Source of the DNA: Candidatus Aenigmatarchaeota archaeon | GTDB lineage: Archaea; Aenigmatarchaeota; Aenigmatarchaeia; GW2011-AR5 | Length of the DNA stretch: 34,704 nt | Direction: 5' to 3' | NCBI GenBank assembly: GCA_016193585.1 | Contig: JACPRW010000009.1 | Span: forward strand, 1-34,704 | Shown here: piece by piece, positions 99 to 34,647 of the stretch | Layout of the letters: each line of letters starts with the position of its first letter | Numbering within the stretch: position 1 is the first letter of the stretch | Program-made: the position numbers and the translations under genes | Notes under the pieces: model-generated | The model's input: only the letters and a program-made list of their open reading frames with translations | Database searches by the model: none | What the model was told of the DNA's origin: nothing

Positions 99-113
99 AC
101 AAAAGGGAAGGTC

Positions 114-141
114 ATAGGAAACCGTAGGTTTCCTATTTCAT
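114..141. repeat. Short hairpin plus 15-base repeat, copy 1
   Basis: ATAGGAAACC (114-123) and GGTTTCCTAT (127-136) form a perfect 10-bp stem with a GTA triloop. The right arm and the bases after it, GGTTTCCTATTTCAT (127-141), recur exactly at 16033-16047, where a similar hairpin with one mismatch is present. The ATG of the next open frame falls inside this copy. Confidence 0.5.
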
Positions 142-626: not shown

Positions 627-719
627 TAGTATGTTCAGTTTATTTTGGAACATTTTATGCTGAACATACACTATAGCAGGTTCGAACGAAAAGTTCCAGT
701 ATTATTCGAACCTACTATA
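627..719. mobile_element. Double-hairpin element, copy E1 (93 bp)
   Basis: Hairpin 1 has the stem GTATGTTCAG (629-638) / CTGAACATAC (660-669) with a 21-base loop containing TGGAAC. Hairpin 2 has the stem 672-685 / 706-719 (TATAGCAGGTTCGA / TCGAACCTACTATA, one mismatch) with a 20-base loop containing GTTCCA. The two loops are complementary (TGGAAC with GTTCCA). The junction CTATAGCAG and the terminal CTATAAT are shared with E4. TAAT occurs on both sides (624-627 and 718-721), as a possible target duplication. No protein is encoded. Confidence 0.8.
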
Positions 720-15878: not shown

Positions 15879-15990
15879 TACACAGTCCCCAAAAAAGCTT
15901 TATGAGTTACAATGCTAAAAAATCGGAAGCTTAGAGGTAAATTTCCCGAAAGTATTAACAGAATTAATAAAGGAATTTAGTGGACAGCCT

Positions 15991-16010
15991 ATTAGTACAA
16001 TCTGCTATAA
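15991..16010. repeat. Fragment of the double-hairpin element (E7)
   Basis: The 20 bases here differ at a single position from E4 bases 32691-32710, including the whole right arm of hairpin 2 (ACAATCTGCTATA). No matching left arm is found nearby, so this looks like the surviving end of a deleted copy. The surrounding 180-base intergenic region (15879-16059) holds nothing else that is clear. Confidence 0.5.
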
Positions 16011-16021
16011 GCAGCGGACAG

Positions 16022-16047
16022 AGAAAACCGCGGGTTTCCTATTTCAT
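16022..16047. repeat. Short hairpin plus 15-base repeat, copy 2
   Basis: AGAAAACC (16022-16029) and GGTTTCCT (16033-16040) form a stem with one mismatch and a GCG loop. GGTTTCCTATTTCAT (16033-16047) is identical to 127-141. It lies just after the minus-strand gene ending at 16060, where it could act as an mRNA-end structure. Confidence 0.45.
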
Positions 16048-27962: not shown

Positions 27963-28598
27963 TCAGAGCGTTTTCTTGTACACATGGCATACGATACGCT
28001 CATTCGGGCGAGGTACCCAGTCAACGGCGCCAGCTATGGTATACCCATTCGCTTCCCAGAACGCGAACACTCCATGCTTCTCAAACGGATGGTCGTTGCT
28101 CAGGGGGACGCAGACCATACTGCAGCCCAGTTGTCGTATCAGTTTTTCAGCAGATGCAAGTAACTGCGCGTCTGCTTTCTTGTCCTTATATGGTGAATTG
28201 CACTGGTTATGTCCTGATATTATTTGCAATTCACCTATAGAAAATTGCGCGTTAATACGACATAAGCTGCGCAATTATCTATAATTGGTTTCTGTAGTAA
28301 ACGCAATGATATGCGCCCAGCGTCCGGTCAGAGGCTCTGTCATGCGCATCGCACCAAAGTCTTCTGGGACGTCATTTTCGCCCAGCAGCTCGAACACGAC
28401 AAAGCCGGTTATTGCTTTATCGGTTTCGGCAACCAGAATTCCCTGCGGGAATGATGCCATTTTTCTTGAGAAATAACGGGCATCAGCTCCGTATGCACCG
28501 TATGCCTCCTTGTCGAGCTCCACCAGTTTACTGACATCGTGCTCGGTGGCTTGCCGTACGCGCATCAATCTATCTGCTGCACGCGTATGCGCTTTCAC
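27963..28598 (-). pseudogene. GNAT N-acetyltransferase gene interrupted by a double-hairpin element
   Basis: Two open frames form one GNAT protein. The upstream part (28598 or 28565 to 28275) reads MRVRQATEHDVSKLVELDKEAYG to IIAFTTETNY. The downstream part resumes at 28187 with KDKKADAQLLASAEKLIRQLGC and ends with FEKHGVFAFWEANGYTIAG and VCHVYKKTL. Removing exactly 93 bp restores ...TETNY-KDKKADAQ... and a normal protein of about 169 residues. The insert stays in frame but brings one TAA stop (28275-28277), so readthrough or loss of function are both possible. It overlaps the KH-protein gene by 4 bases (GTGA), indicating an operon. Confidence 0.85.
28187..28283. mobile_element. Double-hairpin element, copy E2, inside the GNAT gene
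   Basis: GGTGAATTGCA (28192-28202) pairs with TGCAATTCACC (28225-28235), flanked by TATA on both sides. AATTGCGC (28243-28250) pairs with GCGCAATT (28269-28276), flanked by TATAG (28236-28240) and CTATA (28279-28283). The loops are complementary: on the minus strand TTATGTC in one and GACATAA in the other. Repeated TAT codons at 28188 and 28281 mark a 93-bp insertion with a TATA-type duplicated target. Confidence 0.85.
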
Positions 28599-31516: not shown

Positions 31517-32539
31517 GTGGCAAGATTCGTGGTGAGCCGGTCGAAAGTGCTCGCGCAGTACGCAGCCGTGCGCGAACTTGCGGACGCCGTCTCGTACAGC
31601 GTCAAGACAAACCCGCTTCTTGTTTCGTTGCTTGAAGAGAAAACTGATTCGTTCTTCGGCATACATTTCATCCACTCGCTCAGCTACGTACAGAATCCCA
31701 GCCGCGTATGGTTCTTTGCCCAGGGGTGGACTGAGCAGGAATTGAACGAACTGTTCACCCACGGCGTGCGCTCGTTCGTCGTCGACAATGAAAACGACCT
31801 TGCCATGTTGCTGCGTTATATCGAAGCAAGGGACGAGCGCATCAGCCTGCTCCTCAGGATGCGGCTGAAAGAACGAACAATTCATACGGAACGGCATTTC
31901 GTTTTCGGCTTCTACGCAGCGCAGATCAACGAGTGGATACCGAAACTGCGGAAGAACGAAAAAATAGCGCGCCTCGGCATCCACTTCCACCGGAAGAGCG
32001 AGAACCTGAGCGAGTGGGATTTCAGGGATGAATTGGGCGCAGTGATTGACAGCGCGGTTCTCGACTCAATTGATGTGCTCAACATGGGCGGAGGGATTCC
32101 GGTACAGTACAAGAATCACCCCGTTGACATGCTGCCGCACATTTTCCTGAAGATACGCGAGCTCAGGGAATGGCTCAGCGAAAGAAACGTGCAGCTCGTC
32201 ATCGAGCCGGGAAGGTTCATCGCCGCGCCGTGCACGAAGCTGGAGGCGGTCATCAGGAACATCTACGGCAATACCATCATCATCGACTGTTCAGTGTACA
32301 ACGCCGCCATGGACACGTTCGTCGTCCCCATACGGCTGCTCGTCGAGGGCGAGCGCGAAGCGGGCGAAGCGTACACCGTCAAGGGCTGCACGCCTGATTC
32401 TCTCGACGTTTTCAGGTACCGCATCTACATGGATAATCCGAAGATAGGCGACACGATTGTTTTTCTCAATGCCGGCGCGTACACGTACGCAGCGGATTTT
32501 TGCGGACTGCAGAAACTTGAGACGGTATTCGTTGACTGA
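31517..32539 (+). CDS. PLP-dependent decarboxylase, ornithine/carboxynorspermidine decarboxylase fold
   Basis: A 340-residue fold-type III PLP enzyme. SYSVKTNPLL holds the Schiff-base lysine (K30). GIHFHRKSE, NMGGGIP (phosphate-binding glycines), VIEPGRFI and the CTPDSLDVF Cys-Asp motif of the dimer partner site follow in order, and GAYTYAADF near the end provides the conserved Tyr. It could act on ornithine, diaminopimelate or carboxynorspermidine; the short length and proximity to dys favour polyamine synthesis. The start is GTG with AGGTGGGG upstream. AT-rich double-hairpin elements begin 12 bases after the stop. Confidence 0.88.
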   Translation: MARFVVSRSKVLAQYAAVRELADAVSYSVKTNPLLVSLLEEKTDSFFGIHFIHSLSYVQNPSRVWFFAQGWTEQELNELFTHGVRSFVVDNENDLAMLLRYIEARDERISLLLRMRLKERTIHTERHFVFGFYAAQINEWIPKLRKNEKIARLGIHFHRKSENLSEWDFRDELGAVIDSAVLDSIDVLNMGGGIPVQYKNHPVDMLPHIFLKIRELREWLSERNVQLVIEPGRFIAAPCTKLEAVIRNIYGNTIIIDCSVYNAAMDTFVVPIRLLVEGEREAGEAYTVKGCTPDSLDVFRYRIYMDNPKIGDTIVFLNAGAYTYAADFCGLQKLETVFVD

Positions 32540-32550
32540 ATCCCCTCATT

Positions 32551-32739
32551 TATAGCTGACCAACTTAATATTCAGGTATTACACAAGTTGGTCACCTATA
32601 GTGAACCAAGTTATAATAGTAAAGAACATTGATTTTGGAACATTTTACAATGTTCTTTCCCTATAGCAGATTGTGGTAAAAAGTTCCATTATTATTACAA
32701 TCTGCTATAATATCCGGATTCTTTACTTGGTTAACTATA
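32551..32739. mobile_element. Double-hairpin element, copy E3, interrupted by E4
   Basis: Hairpin A: TGACCAACTT (32557-32566) with AAGTTGGTCA (32585-32594), flanked by TATAG (32551-32555) and CTATA (32596-32600). Hairpin B: AACCAAGT (32604-32611) with ACTTGGTT (32725-32732), flanked by TATAGT (32597-32602) and ACTATA (32734-32739). Hairpin B's loop contains the whole of E4. Without E4 the element is 96 bp, and its loops are again largely complementary (TTCAGGTATT with AATATCCGGA, allowing G-U). Confidence 0.78.
32617..32709. mobile_element. Double-hairpin element, copy E4 (93 bp), nested in E3
   Basis: Hairpin 1: AAAGAACATTG (32621-32631) with CAATGTTCTTT (32648-32658), loop containing TGGAAC. 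Hairpin 2: TATAGCAGATTGT (32662-32674) with ACAATCTGCTATA (32697-32709), perfect, loop containing GTTCCA. Length equals E1 exactly. TATAATA occurs on both sides (32612-32618 and 32706-32712). It interrupts the loop of hairpin B of E3. Confidence 0.82.
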
Positions 32740-32764: not shown

Positions 32765-34450
32765 ATGCACCCGTTCCAGAAATTCCGTCTTGAGTGCGAG
32801 CGGCTCACCCAGCAGCACCTTCCCGGGGCAAGGCTCGAGGTGCCGCCGAAGGAAATAGGCGCCGACCTCGCGTTTCCCTGCTTTGCGCACGCGAAGGAGC
32901 TCAGGCAGAGCCCTGCCGACATCGCCAGGGAGAAGGTCAAGCCCATTGTCGGTGAAATCATGTTCTCGCCGCTCATCAGGAAGGTCGAGTCCTCCGGGCC
33001 GTACATCAACTTCTACGCGAACTGGGAAATGCTTGGCAAACTTATTGTCAATGACATCCTCAAACAGAAGGAATACGGCAAAGGGAAGAGAAAAAACAAG
33101 ACGGTCATGATAGAATATTCGTCGCCCAACACCAACAAGCCGCTTCACGTAGGGCATTTGCGCAATGATTCGATCGGCATGGCGGTGTCGAATGTACTCG
33201 ACTACTGCGGCTACGATGCCATCCGGACGGCTATAATAAATGACCGCGGCATCCACATATGCAAAAGCATGTACGCCTATCGGCAATGGGGCAACAACAA
33301 AAAGCCGGACAAAAAGCCCGATCATTTTGTCGGCGATTTCTATGTGCTGTTCGAGCAGAAGCTGAAGGAAAATCCAGACCTCGAGCAGCGCGCACTGGAG
33401 CTCCTCAGGAAATGGGAATTGGGAGACAAGAAAACCCGTACCTTGTGGAAGCACATGAGCATGTGGGTCTTGCGGGGAATGAAGGAAACCTACAAACGAT
33501 TCGGGTCGAAATTTGATTTCTGGACATTCGAGAGCGACATTTACGATAAAGCAAAGCCGATTATTGAAGAAGGGATGAGGAAAAGAGTTTTTCTCAAGAA
33601 TGAAAAAGGTGATACGGTTGCGAAACTCGAGCCGGAACTGCCCAACAAGGTGGTGCTGCGTGCAGATGGGACATCTATCTACATAACGCAGGATCTTGTA
33701 CTGGCGAAAATGCGATTCGAGAAATATAAACTTGACAAGCTCCTCTACGTTGTTGCCAGCGAGCAGAACCTCCATTTCCAGCAGCTCTTCAAAATCTTCG
33801 CACTCTTGGGCTGTTCATTCTCGAGGAAGTGCCATCATCTTTCATATGGGCTCGTTAACCTTCCGACGGGAAGGATGAAAACACGGGAAGGAACGGTCGT
33901 CGATGCGGATGAGCTCATTGCCGAGGTTGCGGGACTTGCCGCGGCAGAAATCAGCAAGAGGGAAAAAAGCCTCCCAAAAAAAGAAACAGCAGCACGGGCA
34001 GAAGCGATCGCGCTTGCTGCAATAAAATACTACCTGCTGAAGCCGGAACCGGTGAAAGACATACTCTTCGACCCGCAGCGTTCCATCGACTTTGAGGGCG
34101 ACACCGGGCCGTACCTGCAGTACACGTATGCGCGTGCGCGTTCCATCCTGCGGAAATCGAAAAAGAAGCCGCGGCTGGGGAAAGGGCACTACCAGGACAA
34201 GGAAATCGCCGTTGTCAAGAAGCTCGGCCAGTTCCCCGAGGTCATCGGGAAGTGCAGCGCCGAGCTGAAGCCGCACTTCCTCGCCAACTACCTCTTTGAG
34301 CTGGCGACGATGTTCAACGAGTTCTACCACACGACGCAGGTCATCGGGTCGGAGCGGGAGCAGGAACTGCTGGCGCTCACCAAGGCGTTCACGGACGTGC
34401 TCGGAACGGGGCTGCGGCTGCTCGGCATCGCACCGCTCGAGAAGATGTAG
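32765..34450 (+). CDS. argS: Arginyl-tRNA synthetase
   Basis: A 561-residue class I synthetase. A short N-terminal Add-1-like domain (1-105) precedes EYSSPNTNKPLHVGHLRND, with the HIGH motif as HVGH (128-131). The catalytic domain continues with GRMKTREGTVVDADEL, the KMSKS-equivalent region. The C-terminal anticodon domain has YLQYTYARARSILRK and ends in LGTGLRLLGIAPLEKM, the typical LGLxLLGI ending. ATG at 32765 is used; TTG at 32756 is less likely. TATA box and leaderless spacing agree. Confidence 0.96.
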   Translation: MHPFQKFRLECERLTQQHLPGARLEVPPKEIGADLAFPCFAHAKELRQSPADIAREKVKPIVGEIMFSPLIRKVESSGPYINFYANWEMLGKLIVNDILKQKEYGKGKRKNKTVMIEYSSPNTNKPLHVGHLRNDSIGMAVSNVLDYCGYDAIRTAIINDRGIHICKSMYAYRQWGNNKKPDKKPDHFVGDFYVLFEQKLKENPDLEQRALELLRKWELGDKKTRTLWKHMSMWVLRGMKETYKRFGSKFDFWTFESDIYDKAKPIIEEGMRKRVFLKNEKGDTVAKLEPELPNKVVLRADGTSIYITQDLVLAKMRFEKYKLDKLLYVVASEQNLHFQQLFKIFALLGCSFSRKCHHLSYGLVNLPTGRMKTREGTVVDADELIAEVAGLAAAEISKREKSLPKKETAARAEAIALAAIKYYLLKPEPVKDILFDPQRSIDFEGDTGPYLQYTYARARSILRKSKKKPRLGKGHYQDKEIAVVKKLGQFPEVIGKCSAELKPHFLANYLFELATMFNEFYHTTQVIGSEREQELLALTKAFTDVLGTGLRLLGIAPLEKM

Positions 34451-34511: not shown

Positions 34512-34550
34512 TATATGGTGAATTGCACTGGTTATAGTGGACCAACAAAA
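34512..34550. repeat. Truncated double-hairpin element (E5)
   Basis: The first 24 bases (34512-34535) are identical to E2 bases 28187-28210, including the stem arm GGTGAATTGCA. They then run into TATAGTGGACCAA, matching the start of E3 hairpin B (TATAGTGAACCAA) at 12 of 13 positions. The right arms are missing. It looks like a deletion derivative joining the left arms of both hairpins. The remaining 34551-34640 region holds nothing else recognised. Confidence 0.6.
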
Positions 34551-34647
34551 GAATACCGACATATTACTCGCCTGCGTGAATGCTGCGTGGTCTTGACCCG
34601 CAGATGAGAGCAGGCTCCCTTTTTCTTGAGGCACGTGTAAAAGTTTA

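Follow-up and report, generated by a model that had tools for sequence, protein, structure and literature searches.

The gap upstream of argS in this archaeal genome holds two mobile elements, one inserted into the other: a double-hairpin element, E3, arrived first, and a second double-hairpin element, E4, entered the loop of E3's second hairpin later and recently. Both are MITEs, probably of the IS630/Tc1-mariner (ITm) type, in a lineage-restricted variant with a near-constant 91-bp double-hairpin anatomy, and we put the probability that such elements are mobilized in trans by IS630/Tc1-mariner-type transposases at roughly two in three.

Structure of the nested locus

The window (the whole stretch of 34,704 nucleotides that was analyzed) is contig 10 of a 1.17-Mb Aenigmatarchaeota (DPANN) genome. 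E3 with its nested E4 occupies the gap between a diaminopimelate-decarboxylase-like gene (31517–32539, forward strand; weak family match) and argS, which encodes arginyl-tRNA synthetase (32765–34450, forward strand). E3 (32553–32737, forward strand, TAG..CTA) is 185 bp long with E4 and 91 bp without it, and stands between two copies of TA (32551–32552 and 32738–32739). Its first hairpin (32557–32594, forward strand; arms 32557–32566 and 32585–32594) was folded in an empty copy, and its second (32597–32739, forward strand) has a loop filled by E4. The arms originally assigned to the second hairpin, AACCAAGT (32604–32611) and ACTTGGTT (32725–32732), match exactly and are separated by 113 bases; the full stem extends to 15 bp with one mismatch (TATAGTGAACCAAGT, 32597–32611, and ACTTGGTTAACTATA, 32725–32739).

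The initial annotation measured E4 at 93 bases. The element is in fact a 91-bp core (32617–32707, forward strand, TAG..CTA) between two copies of a duplicated TAA (32614–32616 and 32708–32710), so that the net insertion amounts to 94 bp. TATAATA does occur on both sides of E4, as reported (32612–32618 and 32706–32712), and these apparent flanks consist in part of target sequence and in part of the TA tips that belong to E4 itself.

The same annotation also deduced two separate insertions, and this is borne out. E3 copies that lack E4 exist in the same genome (C1:111418–111514, C5:90447–90547, and L047), in L058 and L059, and in other Aenigmatarchaeota, and in G001, which belongs to another genus of the family (g2), the same two genes lie 54 bp apart with no element between them; E3 therefore came first and E4 second. 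The uninterrupted E3 loop reads AAGTTATAATATCC, and the filled site reads AAGTTA-TAA-[91 bp]-TAA-TATCC. Among the stretches read, five E4 cores, that of the window and four at other places, are identical, and the host E3 belongs to a different and older family. A second composite (C7:25483–25622), where a C-type element hosts an E4 of another subfamily in its homologous loop, is an independent event. This recurrence of E4 in a hairpin at an equivalent point might suggest a single ancient, fixed unit or an assembly artifact, a reading with next to no chance of being correct, given that the C7 host is of a different family and its E4 is only ~93% identical, that E3 without E4 is common, that the orthologous gap in G001 has no element, and that elements are nested in other pairings as well; we checked specifically for an ancient, invariant composite, and it is excluded.

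Copy number, distribution, and target choice

Across the genome, E4 yields 43 left-end and 39 right-end matches, against 0 for a reversed-pattern control. In the 38 copies that were read with their flanks, the boundaries are constant and the surroundings unrelated; flanking genes and orientation differ from copy to copy, and most copies are intergenic (with genes defined by simple ORF calls). Other families are present within the window as well: A2, the sister family of E4 (627–717, forward strand, 91 bp, TAA on both sides); a D element (28191–28281, forward strand, 91 bp, TGG..CTA, TA on both sides); and, near the contig end, a partial D element interrupted by a C element (34512–34568, forward strand, with D matches at 34512–34535 and C matches at 34532–34568). 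When 84,980 species genomes were searched for the exact E3 pattern, matches came only from Aenigmatarchaeota MAGs, including GW2011_AR5, and related genomes also carry E3. Viral contigs searched with the left half of E4 returned no match, and a scan of genome contigs for ArgRS yielded nothing usable. We also sought an autonomous E4 by way of unpaired ends, all of which turned out to be those of truncated or interrupted copies.

A preference of these elements for AT-rich loops, proposed from the nesting itself, finds no support. Of 38 E4 sites, 6 are within or abut another hairpin unit; among randomly drawn intergenic TAA/TTA sites, the figure is 148 of 941 (15.7%; P = 0.56). These controls were drawn from the same stretches as the E4 sites, the comparison covers the stretches around copies, and the unit detector misses several nested cases, equally in sites and controls. 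Nor do the flanks differ in A+T content (0.577 at E4 sites versus 0.592 at controls; P = 0.29). E4 selects a trinucleotide, TNA, in DNA where insertions are tolerated, which is mostly intergenic and is crowded with TA-rich hairpin elements, and because such TA/TAA-rich elements are abundant there, nesting is expected from their density with no need for a loop preference. Nesting also runs in both directions, with E4 itself serving as host in L189, L190, and L035, and nested short repeats are known from pneumococcus (PMC3049150).

Several rearranged or unrelated repeats are also present. In L192 (C7:45500–49500), a nested cluster splits an E4 into halves that lie ~2.6 kb from each other and face opposite ways, a layout suggestive of an inversion of the intervening DNA through homologous recombination between nested elements. 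An E4-type element in G011 (L140, 750–840) has its second hairpin inverted in place, with the inner box reversed in direction. C elements in L054, L058, and L028 carry an extra palindromic insert, TACACGCAAAAAGC..CCGCGTGTA, between their hairpins, at a TATA junction. Finally, a 32-bp palindromic repeat with a GGAAACC..GGTTTCC core occurs twice in the window (110–141 and 16016–16047; 84% identical) and represents a family of short REP-like repeats separate from the double-hairpin elements; an E4 right-end remnant (15990–16010) adjoins this palindrome.

Target-site duplications

Flanks of E4 and A2 copies read TAA/TAA in 44 cases, TGA/TGA in two, TTA/TTA in one, and TCA/TCA in one more (L189); three E4-type copies have discordant flanks, with TGA on the left and TAA on the right. 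The non-TAA flanks agree across the element far more often than shuffling produces (P ≤ 1e-5), and such concordance among TAA, TGA, TTA, and TCA flanks indicates that E4 duplicates a 3-bp TNA.

The E3-like, C, and D families duplicate TA, as ITm MITEs do. This can be read from filled and empty sites: an element in the second loop of E4 in L189 (empty, GTGGTTAAAAG; filled, GTGGTTA[TAG..CTA]TAAAAG), a D element in the hairpin junction of E4 in L190, and, in L050, a C element inside the loop of D and a D element inside the loop of E3. E3 copies are themselves flanked by NTA on the left and TAN on the right, consistent with a TA duplication, which is also what the filled/empty pairs of its sister families display. 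The 3-bp TNA of E4 and A2 departs from the classical 2-bp TA; within the ITm group, the TAA duplications described in PMC7386202 are those of eukaryotic pogo/Fot elements and not of prokaryotic IS630. Given a TNA in place of TA, in a form known from pogo/Fot, we do not file E4 as a proven ITm member.

Shared anatomy of the element families

The core is exactly 91 bp long in E4, A2, E3, and D, and 92 and 93 bp long in two other families. Each half (~46 bp) begins with TAG (TGG in the left half of D), continues into a variable outer stretch, and contains a conserved inner box ~17 to 31 bp from the tip. The terminal inverted repeats have TAG tips, with outer matches of 8/13 in E3, 10/13 in C, and 5/13 in E4; the inner portion matches at 12/15 in E4. 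Among six families, the inner boxes are mirrored above the level of shuffles in E4, A2, D, and G, and not clearly so in E3 and C. In the E4 copy of the window, the left box (TGGAACATTTTA, 32636–32647, forward strand) lies in the loop of the first hairpin and mirrors, about the element's center, the right box (TAAAAAGTTCCA, 32677–32688, forward strand) in the loop of the second.

A probable IS630/Tc1-mariner-type mobilizer

Taken together, these elements are MITEs: they are short, gene-less, and multicopy, with precise ends, unrelated flanks, terminal inverted repeats, and target-site duplications. An IS630 in G020, a genome of the same order and another family, has TAGATAACTGC at both ends beside TA, with an inner ATGAC at positions 21 to 25 (at least two left and at least two right ends were seen, at contig breaks), and 30 bp of a 47-bp hairpin unit in the present genome (L047) match the right end of this IS630 at 93% identity. 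The right end of D resembles that end (18 of 30 positions), and E3 and E4 share its tip and layout only. By layout, end match, and TA duplication, the TA families would thus be IS630-type MITEs. A search of the present genome (G000; 90.75% complete) with PF13358 and with the G020 IS630 protein found no ITm transposase, and none of the genomes searched yielded an IS whose ends resemble those of E4. A mobilizer housed in the same genome is the usual case, though no requirement, and it may have been lost or may lie in the part that the assembly lacks; the tie to IS630 is accordingly one that we infer, most strongly for the TA families and less so for E4, whose place in the same group is suggested by likeness.

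If the elements are indeed ITm MITEs, each half would constitute a complete transposon end; the transposase would bind both ends and excise the element, which would then be joined to a TA (E3-like, C, and D) or to a TNA, usually TAA (E4 and A2), that becomes duplicated. At this locus E3 landed first, at a TA in the gap ahead of argS; E4 followed, in a recent burst, at a TAA within the second-hairpin loop of E3.

The alternative that survives best, although we consider it unlikely, restricts ITm enzymes to the TA families and assigns E4 and A2 to a DDE transposase of the IS5 type (ISL2/IS1031-like), with TNA as its duplicated target. Duplication of TNA is typical of some IS5 subgroups, and the 3-bp duplication made by E4 agrees with this, but E4 shares its tips, its length, and the arrangement of its boxes with the TA families. 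Moreover, the sole intact IS5-like transposase found in the present genome (L073) is that of an IS with GGCTTTGTTTAA tips and ~9-bp duplications, and PF13359 has no match there. As specific candidates, the SWIM-DDE (IS5_2-like) transposase, which several element-bearing genomes encode, is ruled out by these ends and this duplication length, and the PF13359 (IS5/PIF-like) type by its absence from the present genome, the multicopy IS of this kind in G020 having GAGAACTTT tips. Separately, C3 of the present genome carries a copy derived by deletion from the SWIM-zinc-finger IS5-like transposon (L126; GGCTTTGTTTAA.. tips and a 9-bp duplication, GTCGGAAAT), which constitutes a second, unrelated MITE-like type.

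Folding and pairing between the hairpins

Both elements fold strongly as DNA, with z = −7.6 for E4 and z = −9.9 for an empty E3 (0 of 200 shuffles folded as well), and each half forms a hairpin (fold z of −5 to −10). In the window, the first hairpin of E4 (32621–32658, forward strand) is predicted by folding to have an 11-bp stem (32621–32631 with 32648–32658), in which 93% of cells are paired and two pairs show two-sided changes. The second (32664–32707, forward strand) has 11 conserved pairs (32664–32674 with 32697–32707), and across the E4 family 92% of cells in this stem are paired, while 6 of the 11 pairs show two-sided changes. The two loops are likewise complementary: 97% of cells pair, with two-sided changes at four of six pairs, and sliding the loops lowers this to at most 49%; in all of these figures, cells count sequences and not independent events. 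Compensatory changes in the second stem and between the loops include GGAGC/GCTCC in G005 and GTAAAC/GTTTAT in G002. Loop-loop pairing is weak or absent in C and D2. In E4 it is exactly dyad-symmetric (i + j = 92, the element being 91 bp long), a geometry that does not discriminate between kissing loops and mirrored protein-binding boxes; we rejected the kissing-loop reading since the pairing, real as it is in the E4 family, is explicable as mirrored boxes and does not extend to C and D2.

Such strong folding, and compensatory change both in the second stem and between the loops, could mean that the elements are retained for what their folded RNA or single-stranded DNA does, be it in mRNA processing, in attenuation, or in structure-directed recognition through kissing loops, and that mobility is secondary; hairpin MITEs are known to affect genes with which they are cotranscribed (PMC3049150, PMC2229807). 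We judge this somewhat less probable still than an IS5-type enzyme: two inverted transposase-binding boxes give the same dyad-symmetric pairing, neighboring genes and orientation vary between copies, recent, near-identical copies require no host function, and Rfam covariance models run over the window gave no match above the gathering cutoff. It is improbable, too, that the folded single strands, their hairpins locked by loop-loop pairing, are the substrate of an as yet unrecognized recombinase that duplicates a 3-bp TNA, for which the 91-bp length would be a structural requirement.

Paired hairpins also bring to mind REP/BIME sequences, and with them single-strand transposition of the REP/IS200-IS605-like kind, in which a Y1 (HUH) transposase acts on hairpins and no target is duplicated. 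Some relatives do have Y1 genes, one of them with a hairpin unit upstream, but the present genome has no Y1 match, Y1 and element counts are unrelated across relatives, and the TGA/TGA, TTA/TTA, and TCA/TCA flanks are real target duplications, all of which makes this a very poor prospect. The hairpin unit in question (L066, 1333–1378, in G018) lies just upstream of the Y1 transposase gene; other Y1 loci have no such link.

IS110 was likewise rejected as the mobilizer: it is absent from the present genome, and in G012 and G020 copies of it are inserted into hairpin elements, which makes these elements its targets, not its cargo. These IS110-family insertions (L019, 1501–1620; L108, 700–2030; L109) fall, in G012, between two hairpins at a TATAG junction (in two hosts) and, in G020, within a hairpin.

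Comparison with known systems

The ITm-type MITEs proposed here populate a DPANN lineage of tiny genomes with dense, recently active, gene-less elements that have precise ends, readable empty sites, and multilevel nesting; with these, the chemistry of insertion can be worked out from the sequence by itself. For IS630-type MITEs, a near-fixed 91-bp plan, self-palindromic ends, and duplication of TNA are out of the ordinary, and these features of E4 raise the question of which transposase moves it.

Among systems to which the elements may be likened by description, the double-hairpin elements of fungal and other mitochondria are also built of two hairpins, mobile, and abundant. REP/BIME sequences with RAYT (Y1) similarly consist of paired palindromes in intergenic DNA, whereas the present elements have target duplications and TAG..CTA tips, in a genome with no Y1 gene.

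Correia elements (NEMIS), whose tips are TATAG-like, form a family known from Neisseria, unlike the elements described here. By description they, too, are short and TA-ended and contain stem-loops (PMC2229807). A close parallel is RUP, the IS630-Spn1 MITE of pneumococcus, which has TA ends and a link to IS630 (PMC2229807), and mutual insertion among RUP, BOX, and SPRITE has been reported (PMC2229807, PMC3049150). Like the present elements, RUP (~107 bp, with IS630-like ends) has a high copy number, targets TA, and contains no gene. Unlike RUP, the elements here have no partner transposase found in their own genome, and whereas RUP is bacterial, they belong to DPANN archaea and combine two hairpins with a near-constant 91-bp core and palindromic ends.
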